A DNA stretch of 58,149 nucleotides from a virus (IMGVR_UViG_3300020470_000561:1-58149); one strand, 5' to 3'; counted from the first letter of the stretch, positions 1,622 through 57,651 are shown. The notes: a model not told the origin generated them from the sequence alone. Translations and numbers: made by a program.

Positions 1622-2199
1622 TTTAATGTGTTTGGTAGTTGATTAGGTGTCATAACTTTGGTCAATTCATGTATAGGTTTTAGAGGATATACTGCACCTA
1701 AAGTTATTCTATATCCCTCAGTTGGTGCTTCTCCACGATGCCAAATACTGCTATTAAATATAACCATTCGACCACGTTTAAAGGATACTCGTTGTATATC
1801 TTCATCCCTACTATTAACTATAACTGTATCACCAGAAGTTCCACTCGCCATGTATATAATAGTTAGGTATTCTTCATAATCACTATCACAATGATTGCAT
1901 CCATTTTGTCCTGGTAATTGACCATTTAACAAAACTCGATGACAATTAGTGAGATTATATTCCTTACAAATATCATTATAAACGCAAAGATTGAAGTAGT
2001 CAAGGAACCACCAAGGTGGAAATCTCTCCATCCAGTTGTTATCAACCATGAGCAAATTACCAAAGAATCTTGCTTTATCAAAATCCATATATGGTGAGTT
2101 AGTATAAGTTACTGGCATATTTACGCAGTCTAAACTAACACGATCTACCATCCAATCTGGAAAATAATTATCAACAATTCGTACCTTATCTGCCAACAT
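1618..2199 (-). CDS. 2OG-Fe(II) oxygenase (prolyl-hydroxylase-like)
   Basis: 193 aa. A complete facial triad is visible: H103-x-D105 (NHCDSDYEEY), distal H154 (SSIWHRGEAPTEGYRITLG) and a 2-oxoglutarate-binding Arg at R164. This is the usual pattern of the double-stranded beta-helix dioxygenases that hydroxylate protein or small-molecule substrates with Fe(II), O2 and 2-oxoglutarate. The substrate is unknown. It is coupled to the degenerate oxygenase downstream (ATGA) and overlaps the 60-aa ORF upstream. Confidence 0.8.
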   Translation of the reverse strand: MLADKVRIVDNYFPDWMVDRVSLDCVNMPVTYTNSPYMDFDKARFFGNLLMVDNNWMERFPPWWFLDYFNLCVYNDICKEYNLTNCHRVLLNGQLPGQNGCNHCDSDYEEYLTIIYMASGTSGDTVIVNSRDEDIQRVSFKRGRMVIFNSSIWHRGEAPTEGYRITLGAVYPLKPIHELTKVMTPNQLPNTLK

Positions 2200-2368
2200 T
2201 GTTCTTTGCTTTTAATAATATTTGCTTTAATTCTTCACTCGCATTGATGCGTTCACTGATTGCGTCCTTTAATTCATCACCATTCAATTCAGTATCGCTC
2301 ATCTTAGCAGTGATCTCCATTAATTTATTTAATGCCTCGGTTGCTCTCTGTCCTTCATTCATTAGCAT
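2186..2368 (-). CDS. small hypothetical protein (60 aa)
   Basis: Helical, charged 60-residue protein (ends KQILLKAKNNVGR). It overlaps the neighbours on both sides by 14 bases. No family recognised; its place between the methyltransferase cassette and the oxygenase suggests it is part of the same transcript. Confidence 0.55.
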   Translation of the reverse strand: MLMNEGQRATEALNKLMEITAKMSDTELNGDELKDAISERINASEELKQILLKAKNNVGR

Positions 2369-2573
2369 CTCCTGTTAGTTCTTTATACTCCCAGTTATCA
2401 TCTTCTGGATAGTCTACCCAAAACCAATATTCAGGATCATCTAGTGCTGAGAAGAACCATCTATCCTTCCTCTTATGCTCTAGTCGTACAATATTCTTTG
2501 AGTTTAAATATTTAACAAACTTTTGTCGAGCATTATCACTCTTTGGTTTTACATATACTTTAGATCTAAGCAT
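2355..2573 (-). CDS. hypothetical protein (72 aa)
   Basis: Basic N-terminus (KVYVKPKSDNARQKF) and an aromatic, acidic C-terminus (EYWFWVDYPEDDNWEY). It overlaps the end of the downstream methyltransferase of the cassette by 8 bases. No family recognised. It may be an accessory component of the cassette. Confidence 0.55.
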   Translation of the reverse strand: MLRSKVYVKPKSDNARQKFVKYLNSKNIVRLEHKRKDRWFFSALDDPEYWFWVDYPEDDNWEYKELTGDANE

Positions 2574-3405
2574 CAGTTAACCTCGTAACTAAATTATCCT
2601 GGTATGGTTTAACTCTTTCAACACACATATTATAATACTCATCATCAATCTCAAAACCAATAAAATTTCTGAGCATTTCTAGGCAAATTTGGGCAGATGT
2701 GCCACTGCCCATAAAGGGATCTAGTATCAGGTCACCCTCGTTGCTCCATGTATGTATGTGTCCTCGTGCTAACTCCTCTGGCATGGTAGCAGGATGTTTG
2801 TACGATGTCTTACTTGACTGTCCAAACCCACCACTATTCTTTATCTTCCAGATGTTAGTCCTTACACCCCACTCCTTAATCTCTTTACTCTTCTTACCAG
2901 GATCATGTATTGATCCATCCTTCTTTCTAGTTTGTGCATTGCCCCATGACTGATGACCTGCCCACTTATTCTTTTTATCACATAATAAATTAACTGTCTT
3001 GGGTTTACCCTTAGATAATATAAAACAATACTCAAACTGTTGAGTATATCTTACTGAGTTAACACCACTAGCAAATGCTGTACCTGTCTTCTCATATATC
3101 ATAGTATCATGTAGTCTTAAACCTAACTCCATGAAATGTAATGCCTGTCGAAATGATGATCCAGACTCACTCCCCTTAATGGTAGCATCATTTACATTCC
3201 ACATGATGACACCACCAGGTTTTAATACTCTATTTAATTGTGCTGCTACACTATAAAATACATTGATATCCCATTTAGTATTATCATTATATGTACGTAA
3301 GTCATCGTATGGTGGTGATGTTACCACCAAATCAATGCACTCATCATCTAACTGCTGCATACCTGCAATGCAATTAACATGATAAGTTTTATTTACCTCT
3401 AGCAT
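2566..3405 (-). CDS. DNA methyltransferase (SPPY type, m4C or m6A)
   Basis: 279 aa. The catalytic motif IV TSPPY lies at residues 29 to 33 and the AdoMet-binding motif DPFMGSGT at 229 to 236, followed by NFIGFEIDDEYY. Motif IV before motif I is the beta-class order of exocyclic amino methyltransferases. SPPY is more typical of N4-cytosine enzymes, but N6-adenine cannot be excluded. The central region (about 80 to 225) would hold the target-recognition part. It overlaps the upstream nuclease-like gene by 7 bases. Likely role: protecting phage DNA, or marking it together with the second methyltransferase. Confidence 0.88.
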   Translation of the reverse strand: MLEVNKTYHVNCIAGMQQLDDECIDLVVTSPPYDDLRTYNDNTKWDINVFYSVAAQLNRVLKPGGVIMWNVNDATIKGSESGSSFRQALHFMELGLRLHDTMIYEKTGTAFASGVNSVRYTQQFEYCFILSKGKPKTVNLLCDKKNKWAGHQSWGNAQTRKKDGSIHDPGKKSKEIKEWGVRTNIWKIKNSGGFGQSSKTSYKHPATMPEELARGHIHTWSNEGDLILDPFMGSGTSAQICLEMLRNFIGFEIDDEYYNMCVERVKPYQDNLVTRLTDA

Positions 3406-4016
3406 ACAGTCTCTTTAACAAACTTCACCCAAGTTTTATTAGGTTTAATACTACCACTATACACCACTATGTCATTATAGTCAATGTCTGTCTTACATTT
3501 GAGAGCACTGAAGTTAGAGGATCCAGACTGATCGTTATACTCTGTCCACTTCCTTGCACTACCATCAATAGTAACTGTCTGCCACTCTGTGATTCTATCC
3601 TTAACAATAGTATATCTGAATACTAATGTTACCTCACATTTACTATCAAGTACTTTCAAGTTACCAATACATGCTGTGCTGCCATCCTTACCACCTGAGC
3701 ATTTAACTTCTAATGGTATAGTTTGACCATTGCCAACATATTTGTAATCCATACCCTTACCAATACCTTCCTTAGTAATTGGTAGATCCTTAATAATATG
3801 TGTGATGCAGTTGTTGATAGCATTCTGAATGATCTTAGTTGCTGCTTGTGTCTGCTGCTTACTGTCATTCTCACTATCTCCTACTAACTGCTCCCATGTA
3901 GTATGCTCACAATATGGTGCAGTAATGAAATGCTTGATGCACTCATTAATCATTGCAGGTAATTCTCTGTCAATTACTTGGATGCACTCTTCAAGTGTTT
4001 TGTCTCTTAGTTTCAT
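3399..4016 (-). CDS. putative PD-(D/E)XK endonuclease (restriction-like)
   Basis: 205 aa. The central segment GMDYKYVGNGQTIPLEVKC gives D90, then E103-V-K105 on a hydrophobic strand, the arrangement of the PD-(D/E)XK nuclease core; a conserved-looking GKDG follows. The N-terminal half is helical. It lies between two SPPY methyltransferases, overlapping the downstream one, which is the context of a type II restriction enzyme. What is seen: the motif and the context. What is inferred: nuclease activity. It could instead be a DNA repair or host-DNA-degrading nuclease. A TATAAT box lies 24 bases upstream. Confidence 0.5.
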   Translation of the reverse strand: MKLRDKTLEECIQVIDRELPAMINECIKHFITAPYCEHTTWEQLVGDSENDSKQQTQAATKIIQNAINNCITHIIKDLPITKEGIGKGMDYKYVGNGQTIPLEVKCSGGKDGSTACIGNLKVLDSKCEVTLVFRYTIVKDRITEWQTVTIDGSARKWTEYNDQSGSSNFSALKCKTDIDYNDIVVYSGSIKPNKTWVKFVKETVC

Positions 4017-4039
4017 TGATCTTGGAATTCTATAGTACC

Positions 4040-4045
4040 ATTATA
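4040..4045 (-). promoter_or_regulatory. possible -10 box of an internal promoter for the nuclease-like gene
   Basis: A perfect TATAAT reads on the minus strand in the 31-base gap between the methyltransferase stop and the nuclease-like ATG. The -35 at 17-base spacing is only GATACA, so this is a weak candidate. AT-rich boxes occur often in this genome. Confidence 0.3.
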
Positions 4046-4047
4046 AC

Positions 4048-4995
4048 TCAATCTGAGTCATCTGTATCAGCGACTCCACCAGTTCCTAAACTGGCATATA
4101 ATCCTAGTCTCTTATCTATTAAATTAGAATAGTCCTCATGCAATTCACATCCTATATAATTTCTTCCTAACTCTTTAGCAACCATCGCAGTAGTACCTGA
4201 TCCCATAAAAGGATCTAATACTATATCACCTCTCTGACTACCTGCAAGAATACATGGTACAATTAACTCTCTAGGATATGTAGCAAAGTGTGCACCTTTA
4301 TAAGGTTTCTTGTTTACCGACCAAACAGACCGTTTATTCCTCTTATCGTAGGATTTGGTAAGACCACTATGAGGTGATAGACCAGTGCCAGGATTGTGAT
4401 ACTTACCATTGCTGCGATCTCTTGTTCCCCAATCTTTTGCTGGTTCTTTGATTGCTTCATTGTCATAATAATAGTTTTTATTCTTACTCATTAAAAAGAT
4501 ATACTCATGTGCTTTAGTACATCTATCCTTGACACTTTCAGGCATTGGGTTAGGTTTGTGCCATATAATATCCTGCCTTAAATACCATCCATCTGCTCTC
4601 AATGCAAATGCTAACATCCATGGTATACCTATTAAATCTTTACTCTTTAATCCTTCTAGTTTATTACCTCTAACAGGTGTATTCATAGGTAGATCTTGTC
4701 TAGTCTTTGATACTGTCTGCTGTGGATAATTACCATCAGATCTATAATTATAATATGAGTCACCAATATTCAACCACAATGTACCATCATCAGTTAATAC
4801 ATCTCTAACATATCTAAATGTCTTAACTAACTCTTGTACATATTCTTCTGGTGATTGCTCCTGACCTATTTGACTATCCTCTCCACCATAATCTCTTAGA
4901 CCATAATAAGGTGGAGATGTAACACACATTCTTGCTTTAGATGTGATAGTGGGGAGAGTCTTGCGACAATCCCCAAATAAAATAGTATCCTTCAT
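4048..4995 (-). CDS. DNA methyltransferase (SPPY type, GLRDYG family)
   Basis: 315 aa. TSPPYYGLRDYGG at residues 26 to 38 contains motif IV, and DPFMGSGT at 261 to 268 is the AdoMet-binding motif I, again in beta-class order. WHKPNPMPESVKDR and HFATYPREL are familiar segments of this common phage and bacterial methyltransferase family (m4C or m6A). Its ATG overlaps the TGA of the ParB-like gene (ATGA). It is unlike the 2566..3405 enzyme between the two motifs, so the two probably have different targets. Confidence 0.9.
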   Translation of the reverse strand: MKDTILFGDCRKTLPTITSKARMCVTSPPYYGLRDYGGEDSQIGQEQSPEEYVQELVKTFRYVRDVLTDDGTLWLNIGDSYYNYRSDGNYPQQTVSKTRQDLPMNTPVRGNKLEGLKSKDLIGIPWMLAFALRADGWYLRQDIIWHKPNPMPESVKDRCTKAHEYIFLMSKNKNYYYDNEAIKEPAKDWGTRDRSNGKYHNPGTGLSPHSGLTKSYDKRNKRSVWSVNKKPYKGAHFATYPRELIVPCILAGSQRGDIVLDPFMGSGTTAMVAKELGRNYIGCELHEDYSNLIDKRLGLYASLGTGGVADTDDSD

Positions 4996-6014
4996 TTAGT
5001 AATTCGTGCCCATTGTTCTGCATCTGGATGTGCAAATGCAGGATTTACTTTCTCTGCAATTTGCAGAGTTTGCTTACCTAGTGTAGGTGCACCAGACCCA
5101 TGTAAGTTGGTCATAATGTCATTGTACTTATCAATAACACGATATAATACCCAACGTGGTGAACCATAATTACCATGATTCTTTACAAGTTTTGCCTGTG
5201 AATAATGCTCCCTTAACTTAGTCTGCACAAATGTCTTGAATGACTCTTGCTTACCATTGGTAAGTGCTGTGTCTATAAACTTTTTAATGAATAAGATACA
5301 ACGGAATGCATTAGACTGTACTGACTTATCCTTACCATATATCTCATTATAAAATACATATCCTTCCTTTATCTCCTTAATACCAGCATAATCACAACTA
5401 TAATCACATTGTAATGTCTGGATGAAGTGAGAGAAGTTCTTAACTTCCTTAGCATCCTTCTCAAGAGATCCAAATCTATCTGATACTAGATTTAACTCAA
5501 GCATTACATTCTCTACATGTATTGCAAATGGATCACCAAATACTAATTGAGATCTTAACTCATCTAGTTTAGTTAATGCTTTACGATACTTGTTAAGTGA
5601 ATAGTATAATCTTGCTTCTGCCTCTTCCACCTCTTGTACTGTAGCATCATTATCATGCGTTAGTACTTTTACATTTAATGGAAACTGTTTAGGATCAATA
5701 CCTGAGTTTACATATAATTGTAAATGATGATGACCATCAATAACAGTATATGGTGTACCAGATATAATAGATTCTACGTTACTCCTATCTGATAGTATTA
5801 CATCTAGGCATAATCCTAGATCTAATTGACCCATACCTATTAAATTGTGCTCACTTAACTGTCTCTGAATCTTAACCACTAAACCTAGATCATCTAAGAT
5901 CTTCTGCATATCATCCAACTGTCTGGACTCTAGGGGTTTACCCTTCCATCCTGTTGGATAACTCTTCTTTAGTTCACAGTTCAACTGTCGAACTGTCTTG
6001 ATGCCTGTTGACAT
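4992..6014 (-). CDS. ParB/DGQHR-like domain protein, first gene of the methyltransferase cassette
   Basis: 340 aa. The segment TPYTVIDGHHHLQLYVNSG (about 88 to 106) resembles the DGxHR core of ParB/sulfiredoxin-fold proteins. The rest is helical, charged and unrecognised. Proteins with this core bind or cleave DNA, or use nucleotides, and some travel with phage DNA modification genes. It is the first gene after a strong promoter, and two hairpins occupy its leader. Possible roles, all inferred, are DNA binding or control of the cassette. Start: ATG at 6014, with a GGGTGGA stretch in the second hairpin's 3' arm serving as the only Shine-Dalgarno-like sequence. Confidence 0.55.
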   Translation of the reverse strand: MSTGIKTVRQLNCELKKSYPTGWKGKPLESRQLDDMQKILDDLGLVVKIQRQLSEHNLIGMGQLDLGLCLDVILSDRSNVESIISGTPYTVIDGHHHLQLYVNSGIDPKQFPLNVKVLTHDNDATVQEVEEAEARLYYSLNKYRKALTKLDELRSQLVFGDPFAIHVENVMLELNLVSDRFGSLEKDAKEVKNFSHFIQTLQCDYSCDYAGIKEIKEGYVFYNEIYGKDKSVQSNAFRCILFIKKFIDTALTNGKQESFKTFVQTKLREHYSQAKLVKNHGNYGSPRWVLYRVIDKYNDIMTNLHGSGAPTLGKQTLQIAEKVNPAFAHPDAEQWARITK

Positions 6015-6021
6015 AGTATAT

Positions 6022-6037
6022 CCACCCTAACTGGTGG
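6022..6037 (-). promoter_or_regulatory. leader hairpin 2 with loop AGTTAG
   Basis: On the minus strand CCACC-AGTTAG-GGTGG forms a 5-bp stem with a hexaloop. The 3' arm is 7 bases upstream of the ATG at 6014 and overlaps the likely ribosome-binding region, so folding could block initiation. Confidence 0.5.
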
Positions 6038-6052
6038 TCTGAAAAAATATGA

Positions 6053-6068
6053 GCATCTTAACTGATGC
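6053..6068 (-). promoter_or_regulatory. leader hairpin 1 with loop AGTTAA
   Basis: On the minus strand GCATC-AGTTAA-GATGC forms a 5-bp stem with a hexaloop that matches hairpin 2 in five of six positions. It is followed by TCATATTTTTT, so a weak attenuator is another reading. Confidence 0.5.
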
Positions 6069-6079
6069 CCATGTAAATT

Positions 6080-6108
6080 ACTATACCACTGCTGTCAACC
6101 CCTGTCAA
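6080..6108 (-). promoter_or_regulatory. sigma70-type promoter for the methyltransferase cassette
   Basis: On the minus strand: TTGACA (6108..6103), a 17-base spacer, TATAGT (6085..6080). This is a perfect -35, the optimal spacing and five of six matches at -10. The -35 overlaps the stop of the upstream 90-aa gene. A start near 6073 gives a leader of about 58 bases holding both hairpins. A second TTGACA lies within the spacer. Confidence 0.75.
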
Positions 6109-6377
6109 CCCCCTTTCTTAGGATACGTTATATCATACTCAATCACGATCTTCTTAGACTGTCTACCTACTGAGTTACTGGTACAATACTGTGTCCACTC
6201 ACCCTTCAACAATGCTTCCATCGTATTCTTATCTAATCCACATAAATTTACAGCATTATCAACTGCTGCTCTAACAGACTCCAAACCATCAGGATATACT
6301 CGTTTAGCAAATCCATTAAGGTCAGTCTTCTTGGCATCCTCTAATGCCTTATCAATGTCAATATGAAATTCACTCAT
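6105..6377 (-). CDS. hypothetical protein (90 aa)
   Basis: Soluble protein with DIDKALEDAKKTDLNGFAKRVYPDG near the N-terminus and a beta-rich end (KKIVIEYDITYPKKGG). No family recognised. Its ATG overlaps the stop of the upstream gene by 4 bases, and its 3' end contains the -35 of the cassette promoter. It is probably a conserved cyanophage hypothetical. Confidence 0.6.
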   Translation of the reverse strand: MSEFHIDIDKALEDAKKTDLNGFAKRVYPDGLESVRAAVDNAVNLCGLDKNTMEALLKGEWTQYCTSNSVGRQSKKIVIEYDITYPKKGG

Positions 6378-6553
6378 TGCTTCGTTGTATTGCTACGAGT
6401 ACGGTTAATAATGCTAATAAATTTGTCGCCAGCAAAATGTCCACCAAGACACACATCGATCTCATCCCCATCTTTCCAATTAGTCTCACCATTCATCTTA
6501 GTATGTTGCATTAATACTGCAATCTTATCTATGACCTCTTGTGTTAATCTCAT
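6374..6553 (-). CDS. hypothetical protein (59 aa)
   Basis: I start this gene at the ATG of MRLTQEVIDKIAVLM, which overlaps the TGA of the upstream membrane microprotein in an ATGA. The ORF is open further upstream, but that part is out-of-frame translation of the microprotein. The sequence continues HTKMNGETNWKDGDEIDVCL. Function unknown. Confidence 0.6.
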   Translation of the reverse strand: MRLTQEVIDKIAVLMQHTKMNGETNWKDGDEIDVCLGGHFAGDKFISIINRTRSNTTKQ

Positions 6554-6672
6554 TGTAAATAATCCACTATTTTGAGTATACCATATGCTGTGAATACCTG
6601 TGGTATAATAAATGCCACCATCGCAATCACCCAAAACACATAGTAGTAGTTTTCTTTATTTTGTGTTCTCAT
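6550..6672 (-). CDS. membrane microprotein (40 aa)
   Basis: This ORF begins MRTQNKENYYYVFWVIAMVA, followed by a hydrophobic FIIPQVF segment: one membrane helix from about residue 9 to 30. Its ATG overlaps the TGA of the 112-aa gene and its own TGA overlaps the next ATG, an unbroken coupling chain. Function unknown. Confidence 0.6.
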   Translation of the reverse strand: MRTQNKENYYYVFWVIAMVAFIIPQVFTAYGILKIVDYLQ

Positions 6673-7007
6673 GATGACTTACCTGTGATATCATTTGGTA
6701 GATCTTCATTTCCTGGATGATCGTTTATCTTACCTTTATATGCTTTATGATTATAGAAATGCTCATCCTCTATTTCCATATCATCCCACTCATGTGGATA
6801 TACTAAGACGTTAGTTTCTTTATATCCGTGCATACTGTTAGGATCTTCCCTGCGATTCATACTAACAGTAATATATTGGTCACCAATAAAATTAATATGT
6901 CCTTCTTCACCACTCTTAAGTCTAACCTTCATACCTCTTTCAAGAGATTTAAGAATGTTTCTAACTTCCAATGGAATTGCCTCCGCTAAGAATATAGGAA
7001 TAGTCAT
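6669..7007 (-). CDS. hypothetical protein (112 aa)
   Basis: The core GMKVRLKSGEEGHINFIGDQYITVSM (split here: GMKVRLKSGEEGHINFIG, then DQYITVSM) looks like a small beta-barrel (SH3-like), followed by an acidic tail with several His residues. It is coupled by ATGA to the oxygenase upstream and to the microprotein downstream. The family is probably a conserved cyanophage hypothetical; function unknown. Confidence 0.6.
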   Translation of the reverse strand: MTIPIFLAEAIPLEVRNILKSLERGMKVRLKSGEEGHINFIGDQYITVSMNRREDPNSMHGYKETNVLVYPHEWDDMEIEDEHFYNHKAYKGKINDHPGNEDLPNDITGKSS

Positions 7008-7627
7008 AATGTTAAAGCACTATCATCGTATCCAAATGCTCCTTTCATAAAGTAATTGAATGCCATAGAATAACGCTCTTCATCACTTTCATTAACACTT
7101 ATACTATGTGCTAAGTGTGATGGAAATAATATAATCATACCTTCACATGGTTCAATGCTAACCTCACGCATATTGTATACGTTAGATGTTGCTATGTCAG
7201 GTACAATAGTTTGTGTTACATATGTTGGGAACATTGACCCAACATGAAATCTTAACTCTCCACTATTAGGTGGTACTTTAAAATAGAGACAACCACTAAA
7301 CATACTATTTGTATGTGAGTGACCGTCTCCTTTATCTCCTTTGACATGCTTATTAACCCATGATGATTGATGAATTAATTGATGTCTTTGTCTGCTAATA
7401 CCTAGAATATTATATACATAATGATCCAGATATTCTTCTACTAAATTTCTTATCTCTGGTTGATCTTGCAACCATTGTGTACTACTCTGTCCACCATTAT
7501 TCTGTATTACATCTGCTGCTACATACTCACATTTTGTATTAATGACACTTTGCACCATTGAATCATCAAGGTTCATTGTATCAATATAAACTGGTTGCGA
7601 AAATAGAGGTAGTACTTCTCCGTTCAT
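7004..7627 (-). CDS. putative 2OG-Fe(II) oxygenase
   Basis: 207 aa. GHSHTNSMFSGCLYFKVP (H103, H105) and LFPSHLAHSISVNESDEERY (H174, R185) match the phage 2OG-Fe(II) oxygenase family whose members start with an FPxPV-like segment (here LFSQPVYID). The first metal motif is HxH rather than the textbook HxD, as in other members of this family, so the exact ligands are uncertain. It is coupled by ATGA to genes on both sides in the oxygenase array. Confidence 0.75.
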   Translation of the reverse strand: MNGEVLPLFSQPVYIDTMNLDDSMVQSVINTKCEYVAADVIQNNGGQSSTQWLQDQPEIRNLVEEYLDHYVYNILGISRQRHQLIHQSSWVNKHVKGDKGDGHSHTNSMFSGCLYFKVPPNSGELRFHVGSMFPTYVTQTIVPDIATSNVYNMREVSIEPCEGMIILFPSHLAHSISVNESDEERYSMAFNYFMKGAFGYDDSALTL

Positions 7628-7777: not shown

Positions 7778-8494
7778 CTAGGGTCTGATTCTTGCATTGG
7801 TCATAATTTGTTCTACTGTTGATGGGTTGAAACCTAGTATACCATGGTCGTTAACTGGTGGCAAGTTATTCATCTCGTGATCGTCAAATAACTTCTGCCT
7901 TGTCTTGGGATCCATATATTTGAATGCCATGATGTATCGGTTACTCTTGTACCGTGGGGTTGGTGGTCTACCTGAATGAGGTATGCGACCATCAAAAATT
8001 ACTACACGACCTGGTTTAGGACTCACAATATATTTAGCGTCTAGGTTGTGATCGTAGAATATAGTCTCTCCACCCCAGTTAGGATGCCACTCTGGGTTCA
8101 AATATAATAATACTGTCTGATTATCCTCTACAAAATATGGTGAATCTACATGCACACCAGGCATATCACCATCCTTAAGTACATTAACGTATGCACTATA
8201 TAAATTCTCTCTTTTGGGCATTTTTGGGCAAACTGCTTCCAAATAACCAAGGATATCTAAGTATATTGGATCCTCACTTGCTTGTAGTCCTGGATTCTGA
8301 AAGTAATTAGGATTAGATACTGGACAAAAATTATATAATTGATGTGTCCAATACATACCTGCCATATCTACATCAGGTTTCTTCTCTGTTGGTGGATCAT
8401 CAGTACGAGTAAACTTATAAGGTAGATACATTACCTTATAGAATAACTCCTCATTAGACATGCCAGTATCATATGTTTCAAGAAGCATACTCAT
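7778..8494 (-). CDS. 2OG-Fe(II) oxygenase
   Basis: About 238 aa. The motif GVHVDSPYF gives the H-x-D pair (about H115 and D117). GRIPHSGRPPTPRYKSNRYI gives the distal His and the Arg. GGETIFYD and KPGRVVIFD are typical flanking strands. This is a classical, intact triad of a hydroxylase. I prefer the ATG at 8494 because a GGGGG stretch lies a few bases upstream; an in-frame ATG at 8509 is also possible. It overlaps the next upstream oxygenase. Confidence 0.8.
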   Translation of the reverse strand: MSMLLETYDTGMSNEELFYKVMYLPYKFTRTDDPPTEKKPDVDMAGMYWTHQLYNFCPVSNPNYFQNPGLQASEDPIYLDILGYLEAVCPKMPKRENLYSAYVNVLKDGDMPGVHVDSPYFVEDNQTVLLYLNPEWHPNWGGETIFYDHNLDAKYIVSPKPGRVVIFDGRIPHSGRPPTPRYKSNRYIMAFKYMDPKTRQKLFDDHEMNNLPPVNDHGILGFNPSTVEQIMTNARIRP

Positions 8495-9101
8495 GTACCC
8501 CCACAACATTTAATGACATAATATATCTATCATTCTCTGCCTTATTGACTTCTGTCTTATGTGTCAACCATCCTGGAAAGAATAATACATCATTAGTTTT
8601 AACATCAATATAATCCCACTCATATTGATTAGGATAATAATCATATACTAATGGTTCATTCATTTTATATACTTGTAGTGGATTCTTCACCATAAACCTA
8701 CCACTACCTTCAGGTACATCAAGATAACATGATACTGCTATCTGTACATTCTGGTGATGATGCTCCTCTGTATATCCTCCAGTAGGATGCACATTTAACC
8801 ATGATGAATCTAATTGTCTTCGCATTGGCATCATTCGCCACATTGACCACAACTCATCTATCTTCTTATATAACCAATCTTCTCTAAATGATTTAAACTC
8901 TTCCCAATTATGTGGTGGATCCTCTTTGCATAATACAACAGTAGTTACAGCACCATCTTTCTCATGTGTGTTGATATTTTCCCTTTGTATCTTCTCATCA
9001 GCATGACGTATATAATCTTGTACCTTATTCTTTACTGTCTGAAAATTAAAGTCATAAGATGATTTGTATATGTATGGGTGTGGATTAAGAGGGGAGAGCA
9101 T
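8478..9101 (-). CDS. putative 2OG-Fe(II) oxygenase
   Basis: 207 aa. HPTGGYTEEHHHQNVQIAVS (H114 to H116) followed by CYLDVPEGSG, and later FFPGWLTHKTEVNKAENDRY, match the same phage oxygenase family as 7004..7627 and 10362..11042. In this family the two His clusters and the terminal Arg build the iron and 2-oxoglutarate site. It overlaps both neighbours in the array, so the genes are co-transcribed. Substrate unknown. Confidence 0.75.
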   Translation of the reverse strand: MLSPLNPHPYIYKSSYDFNFQTVKNKVQDYIRHADEKIQRENINTHEKDGAVTTVVLCKEDPPHNWEEFKSFREDWLYKKIDELWSMWRMMPMRRQLDSSWLNVHPTGGYTEEHHHQNVQIAVSCYLDVPEGSGRFMVKNPLQVYKMNEPLVYDYYPNQYEWDYIDVKTNDVLFFPGWLTHKTEVNKAENDRYIMSLNVVGVHEYAS

Positions 9102-57424: not shown

Positions 57425-57497
57425 TAGGAGTGGTGGGATTCGAACCCACACTGTAGAGATTTTAAGTCTCCTGTCTCTGCCGTTGGACTACACTCCC
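57425..57497 (-). tRNA. tRNA with anticodon UAA (reads UUA, Leu)
   Basis: The cloverleaf reads GGGAGTG / D-arm GTCC..GAC / anticodon stem GGAGA-CTTAAAA-TCTCT / variable ACAGT / T-arm GTGGG-TTCGAAT-CCCAC / CACTCCT. The anticodon in the 7-base loop is TAA. The variable region is only 5 bases, so it is a class I shape although Leu tRNAs normally have a long variable arm. No CCA is encoded. It begins right after the CCA of the Arg tRNA. Confidence 0.8.
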
Positions 57498-57574
57498 TGG
57501 CGACTCAGGTAGGATTCGAACCTACGACCAACGCTTTAGAAGAGCGATGCTCTTGTCCACTGAGCTACTGAGTC
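57498..57574 (-). tRNA. tRNA-Arg (UCU)
   Basis: GACTCAG acceptor, anticodon loop CTTCTAA with anticodon TCT, T-arm GTAGG-TTCGAAT-CCTAC, then CTGAGTC-G. CCA is encoded at 57500..57498. The top pair of the anticodon stem is T-T. It reads AGA and AGG. Confidence 0.9.
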
Positions 57575-57579
57575 AAAGG

Positions 57580-57651
57580 TAGGACTGTCGGGAATTGAAC
57601 CCGATTCACACCGTTATAAGCAGTGGGCCTTAACCAATAGGCGACAGTCCC
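57580..57651 (-). tRNA. tRNA-Ile (UAU)
   Basis: GGGACTG acceptor, D-arm GCCT..AGGC, anticodon stem CACTG-CTTATAA-CGGTG with anticodon TAT, T-arm TCGGG-TTCAATT-CCCGA, then CAGTCCT. It reads AUA codons. No CCA is encoded. Confidence 0.88.

Follow-up and report, generated by a model that had tools for sequence, protein, structure and literature searches.

A predicted PD-(D/E)XK nuclease paired with a DNA methyltransferase in T4-like cyanophages: a candidate phage-borne restriction-modification pair

Do T4-like cyanophages carry restriction-modification systems of their own, and which genes would make one up? The question is raised by a locus in a 58-kb virus fragment from IMG/VR (the window; 58,149 nucleotides), for which T4-like cyanophages are the top matches. 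The original prediction, made from the sequence alone, described a restriction-modification-like cassette with two methyltransferases around a single PD-(D/E)XK-like protein, led by a ParB/DGQHR-like gene.

Four genes on the minus strand

All four predicted open reading frames (ORFs) were present where they had been placed, on the minus strand. In order of transcription, they encode a ParB/DGQHR-like protein (4992-6014; 340 aa, with the motif VIDGHHHL; phrog_2558, 2.8e-48), the beta-class DNA methyltransferase MT1 (4048-4995; 315 aa; Pfam PF01555, 8e-60), the predicted PD-(D/E)XK nuclease R (3399-4016; 205 aa, with D90 and E103-V-K105), and MT2, a beta-class DNA N6-adenine/N4-cytosine methyltransferase (2566-3405; 279 aa; PF01555, 6e-42). 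The assignment of both methyltransferases to the beta class held. Each has an N6_N4_Mtase domain, with motif IV (SPPY) N-terminal and the FxGxG region C-terminal, so that TSPPY comes before DPFMGSGT. In MT2, these motifs are at residues 29-33 and near residue 230, respectively. The nearest solved relatives of MT2 include the cytosine-N4 methyltransferase 8s9m and MboIIA.

The genes had been described as a single overlapping operon. The ParB-like gene overlaps MT1 by 4 bp and R overlaps MT2 by 7 bp, but there is a 31-bp gap between MT1 and R. Therefore, the operon is compact but not overlapping throughout. The proposed near-consensus promoter exists as sequence at 6108-6080 on the minus strand. 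It is sigma-70-like (TTGACA-17-TATAGT with an extended -10 TG) and matches 11/12 consensus positions. This was the top-scoring of 31 sites across 5.2 kb (2000-7200), for which shuffled sequence yields 23.8. A scan for terminator-like sites found 7 in the region versus 1.3 expected. One of these is a minus-strand hairpin of 9 pairs with a T-rich tail (6049-6072), which lies between the promoter and the first gene, where the operon transcript is expected to begin. We read it as a leader structure or attenuator.

Some features of the surroundings were also apparent. ORFs for 2OG-Fe(II) oxygenases or lookalikes flank the locus (971-1621, 1618-2199, 7004-7627, 7778-8509, and 8478-9101; two were tested), and clusters of this type recur near the same region in other cyanophages. 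Three adjacent tRNA genes (Leu-taa, Arg-tct, and Ile-tat; 57425-57651) are close to the end of the window.

The conserved unit is R with MT2

We surveyed 80 MT2 loci in IMG/VR (loci are numbered with an L below). An R homologue was directly upstream of MT2 in 60 of the 61 loci where MT2 was at least 70% identical, and the two genes usually overlapped by several bases. MT2 also adjoined the R-family gene in 19/19 IMG/VR loci retrieved with the P-TIM40 family member (P0001). In cultured phages, a hypothetical protein of ~200 aa precedes every MT2 relative, and phrog_11812 was immediately upstream in all 17 records with MT2 at 60 to 80% identity. R and PHROG 11812 are one family, joined by a single-linkage blastp chain. 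The pair is present, unannotated, in Syn9 (gp61-gp62), S-MbCM6, S-H35, P-TIM40, and others. This is the arrangement of type II restriction-modification, in which a nuclease gene adjoins a methyltransferase gene and the two are kept as a pair.

MT1 behaved differently. Its relatives adjoin helicases, phosphoribosyl transferases, and other unrelated genes, and they stand alone in P-SSM2, S-SSM4, P-RSM4, and P-HM2. The order MT1-R-MT2 also occurs in L003, L004, L005, L036, L108, and L204. However, the genes upstream of R-MT2 vary (MT1, ParB-like, helicase, and small ORFs), and the pair is distributed patchily over cyanophage genera. Because R is directly upstream of MT2 almost without exception where MT2 is at least 70% identical, while MT1 neighbours vary, the conserved unit is R with MT2. 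MT1 is a facultative neighbour and mostly a solitary methyltransferase, not a conserved partner of R. We rejected the reading in which both MT1 and MT2 are partners of R, because MT1 neighbours vary. The original claim of one nuclease shared by two methyltransferases was therefore replaced by the R-MT2 pair. Nor does the layout stand out as unusual, as had been thought, because R and MT2 occur together in Syn9 and several more cultured cyanophages, and two methyltransferases with one nuclease are known from type IIS and DpnII-like systems.

MT2 also persists alone. A marine locus (L072) has an MT2 relative without R, as do most of the loci L099 to L106, where a short signal-peptide-like ORF is usually upstream. 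Two further loci (L112:651-1379 and L113:1045-1830) instead have an ORF of another kind, with a GGD..YEIK motif, upstream of an MT2 relative at 59% identity. This arrangement suggests an exchange of the nuclease partner. A pattern-limited scan for relatives of R in cellular genomes yielded a single contig, L204 (PAZU01000043.1), in a metagenome-assembled genome labelled Euryarchaeota. It carries MT1-R-MT2 at 73 to 93% identity and is most likely wrongly binned phage DNA.

The ParB/DGQHR-like gene had been proposed to lead the cassette. Three close R relatives in IMG/VR, all in the order MT1-R-MT2 (L003 to L005), have no ParB-like gene beside R, which had led us to regard it as unrelated to R-MT2. 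We dropped that view because in six distinct loci (L053, L054, L055, L071, L084, and L087) a relative of it is directly upstream of R-MT2. Other relatives are beside different methyltransferases in S-CAM22, S-RIM2, S-IOM18, and QB2, and L105 has one downstream of a solitary MT2. Only in DSL-LC02 is there no methyltransferase close by. Therefore, the gene recurs as a neighbour of methyltransferase and nuclease modules, but it is not required. It is best seen as a recurrent optional third component, a regulator or accessory.

Profile searches with this protein were clear for phrog_2558 only. The window copy did not match ParB_N or DGQHR in Pfam, and as a query it found no relative in IMG/VR. It has DGHHH where its relatives have DGQH(R/K/T), the motif of DndB/DGQHR and ParB-like proteins, and the relatives match those families only below cut-off (L053 versus TIGR03187, 6.7e-4; the DSL-LC02 copy versus ParB_N, 7e-4). 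There are no phosphorothioation genes alongside the window gene. In BFVD, a 390-aa entry with the name ParB/Sulfiredoxin is similar to the R model across ~200 columns (TM 0.56 by query), and it may be a fusion.

R as a predicted nuclease

R had no significant match in Pfam, PHROGs, PADLOC, NCBIfam, PDB sequences, or a phage collection. Members of alignment A3 likewise matched no known restriction-endonuclease family in Pfam, PADLOC, NCBIfam, or PDB sequences. Restriction enzymes frequently show no recognisable similarity, so a lack of library matches is compatible with a restriction function for R. Support for the proposed family came instead from conservation and the predicted fold.

The residues on which the original prediction relied, D90 and E103-V-K105, are present (minus strand; 3749-3747 for D90, 3710-3708 for E103, and 3704-3702 for K105). 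However, 88.5% of the copies obtained by shuffling R had a D-x(6-25)-(D/E)-x-K pattern, so the motif by itself is no evidence. The signal beyond chance is its complete conservation. In an alignment of 52 distinct R homologues, with a median pairwise identity of 27% and a lowest of 15%, only 11 columns are invariant (T56, K61, G88, D90, E103, K105, G118, N119, K126, W157, and G188). They include all three catalytic candidates, which are also kept throughout alignment A3.

The predicted fold points the same way. An AlphaFold2 model of R had a pLDDT of 88.9 and a pTM of 0.87. This needed a 42-sequence alignment, because with four close homologues the pLDDT was 36. The model has a helix at 55-77, strands at 91-95, 98-107, and 116-119, a helix at 120-125, and strands at 129-137 and 142-151. 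The D90..E103-x-K105 motif is carried on strands 91-95 and 98-107. R keeps the catalytic D...(D/E)xK of the PD-(D/E)XK superfamily, and its predicted fold has the alpha/beta core of that superfamily, with neighbouring strands bearing the motif. Structure prediction had been proposed as the check on this claim, and it recovered a PD-(D/E)XK-like core. The leading Foldseek matches in the PDB were RecU/PrfA, DpnI, 3ndh (a restriction endonuclease-DNA complex), EcoRV, and PvuII, and nearly all leading matches belong to this superfamily. The scores were modest (best E, 5e-3; probability, ~0.9; TM, ~0.3 to 0.37). From the invariant residues and the modelled fold, R is very probably a PD-(D/E)XK nuclease.

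R is under purifying selection, with dN/dS of 0.13 to 0.37 against close relatives. It diverges much faster than MT2, for which median identity across the same set was 74%, with 90 invariant columns. Even so, the distance matrices of the two proteins are correlated (Mantel r, 0.60; none of 5,000 permutations was as high), which indicates joint inheritance of both genes.

A restriction-modification reading, its rivals, and its relatives

Our preferred reading, with a probability of about 0.7, is that R and MT2 form a type II-like restriction-modification pair carried by the phage. The grounds are computed: the genes are linked, the R family conserves its active-site residues and is predicted to have a PD-(D/E)XK-like fold, purifying selection acts on R, and the two proteins diverge in step. 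During replication of the phage genome, MT2 would methylate a short sequence in it and so protect it, and R would cut unmethylated copies of that sequence. The phage is lytic and would have marked its own DNA, which leaves two candidate targets, singly or together. One is the chromosome of the host, whose cutting would supply nucleotides for recycling and shut down host transcription. The other is the DNA of rival phages that share the cell. MT1 would add an independent methylation, and the ParB/DGQHR-like protein might act as an optional regulator or accessory.

Among the alternatives, the one that survives best is that R and MT2 do work as a restriction-modification pair but mainly as a selfish mobile module (homing-like or addiction), with damage to host DNA as a side effect. 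The many different upstream genes and the patchy spread over cyanophage genera fit this. The correlated distances argue for joint inheritance, although selfish modules would fit that too. We consider this rather unlikely. It overlaps with our preferred explanation, and the sole difference is what selection maintains. Far less probable is that R is a structure-selective nuclease, such as a Holliday-junction resolvase or RecU-type repair enzyme, co-transcribed with MT2 by chance. The single best PDB fold match is the PrfA/RecU resolvase 2fco (E, 5e-3), and jumbo phages are reported to use resolvases with a restriction endonuclease (REase) fold (PMC7824862). However, R occurs with MT2 and not as a core gene, T4-like phages usually fill this role with endonuclease VII, which is annotated in S-CREM2, and very fast divergence around an invariant site is typical of restriction enzymes. 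It is just as improbable that MT2 is a solitary enzyme (acting in regulation, in marking DNA for replication or packaging, or in escape from host restriction), with R as an accessory that has no restriction function. Orphan methyltransferases are common in phages, and MT1 is itself solitary, as are some relatives of MT2, but the three catalytic residues of R are invariant in 52 sequences and R is under purifying selection.

If R and MT2 are a restriction-modification pair, then a role in destroying host DNA is one possibility. Cyanomyoviruses do not have T4 denA, ndd, and denB, and they perhaps degrade host DNA by an undescribed method (PMC2984593). Syn9 degrades host DNA within hours, and P-HM2 likewise degrades it (PMC7852597). 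This makes gp61-gp62 of Syn9 a concrete candidate. However, we saw no recognisable nuclease partner beside the MT1 relative of P-HM2. P-HM2 thus degrades host DNA with no recognised pair of this kind, and R cannot explain host-DNA loss in general. Host chromosome degradation, rival-phage exclusion, and selfish maintenance are all possible. Restriction-modification is reported to be absent from most hosts of these phages (PMC9602691), and pairing with R is a possible reason why phages of such hosts have methyltransferases.

Other nucleases were found beside cyanophage methyltransferases. Two cyanophage records encode an MvaI/BcnI-family enzyme immediately upstream of an MT1 relative (L183:2318-3004 and L206:2501-3187; Pfam, 2.5e-42). 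The second copy is 55% identical and comes from a single-cell virus record. A P-SSM7 protein matched PADLOC REase_II (2e-7). S-CREM2 gp11 (L205:3495-4064) was annotated by its depositors as restriction endonuclease EcoRI and is a homologue of S-RIM2 protein P0010 (L194:3160-3699), which we take to be EcoRI-like. A phmmer search of the PDB with P0010 found no match. The EcoRI-like protein occurs in 65 records of Synechococcus phages, most of them S-RIM2, and its gene is close to one for a D12-class adenine methylase. Among the records listed, only S-CREM2 has the EcoRI annotation, and its gene adjoins one annotated as a Cas9-like virion protein. S-IOM18 P0008 (L195:4908-5507) is a possible MutH-like nuclease, with a weak match far below cut-off (1.9e-5). 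Its neighbours are a D12-class adenine methylase and a ParB-like gene with a DGQH motif. P-TIM68 P0005 had a weak PvuII match (0.002). A helicase gene is near the locus in several of these genomes. We tentatively suggest, as a less than even prospect, that T4-like cyanophages carry exchangeable restriction-modification cassettes (R with MT2, EcoRI-like, MvaI/BcnI-like, and possibly MutH- or PvuII-like, often with a DGQHR/ParB-like third gene) that might substitute for denA, denB, and ndd and serve as an inter-phage weapon.

Virus-borne restriction-modification is already known, but the R family appears, from its sequences and modelled fold, to be a previously unrecognised nuclease family. In open-licence papers, we found no description of this family, its pairing with MT2 across cyanophages including Syn9, or the range of nucleases beside their methyltransferases. 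PHROG 11812, listed as of unknown function, thereby gains a putative one, and the family may be a new source of sequence-specific nucleases.

Chloroviruses provide the experimental precedent. They are lytic viruses with adjacent methyltransferase and restriction endonuclease genes, as here (e.g., CviJI), and breakdown of the host chromosome is attributed to the endonuclease (PMC7019647). However, their hosts are eukaryotic algae and the endonuclease is packaged, whereas phages with the putative R-MT2 pair have cyanobacterial hosts. We detected no sequence relation between the two. The Mom-REase fusions of jumbo phages are also similar, in that a predicted modification enzyme and a REase-fold nuclease would act against host or superinfecting phage DNA (PMC7824862), but these are fused proteins that use momylation, whereas R-MT2 would use methylation by a separate gene. 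Bacterial type II systems, which include the fold neighbours EcoRV, PvuII, and DpnI, share a small PD-(D/E)XK-type nuclease adjoining a beta-class methyltransferase, overlapping genes, and a nuclease that diverges faster than the methyltransferase. R-MT2 differs in being carried by a lytic phage, and R matches no tested restriction-enzyme family. We also saw no usual C-protein-type controller gene with R-MT2. PHROG 11812 (Syn9 gp61 and relatives) is the same family as R. Its members are ~25% identical to the window protein, and they have the same invariant columns and the same position upstream of MT2.
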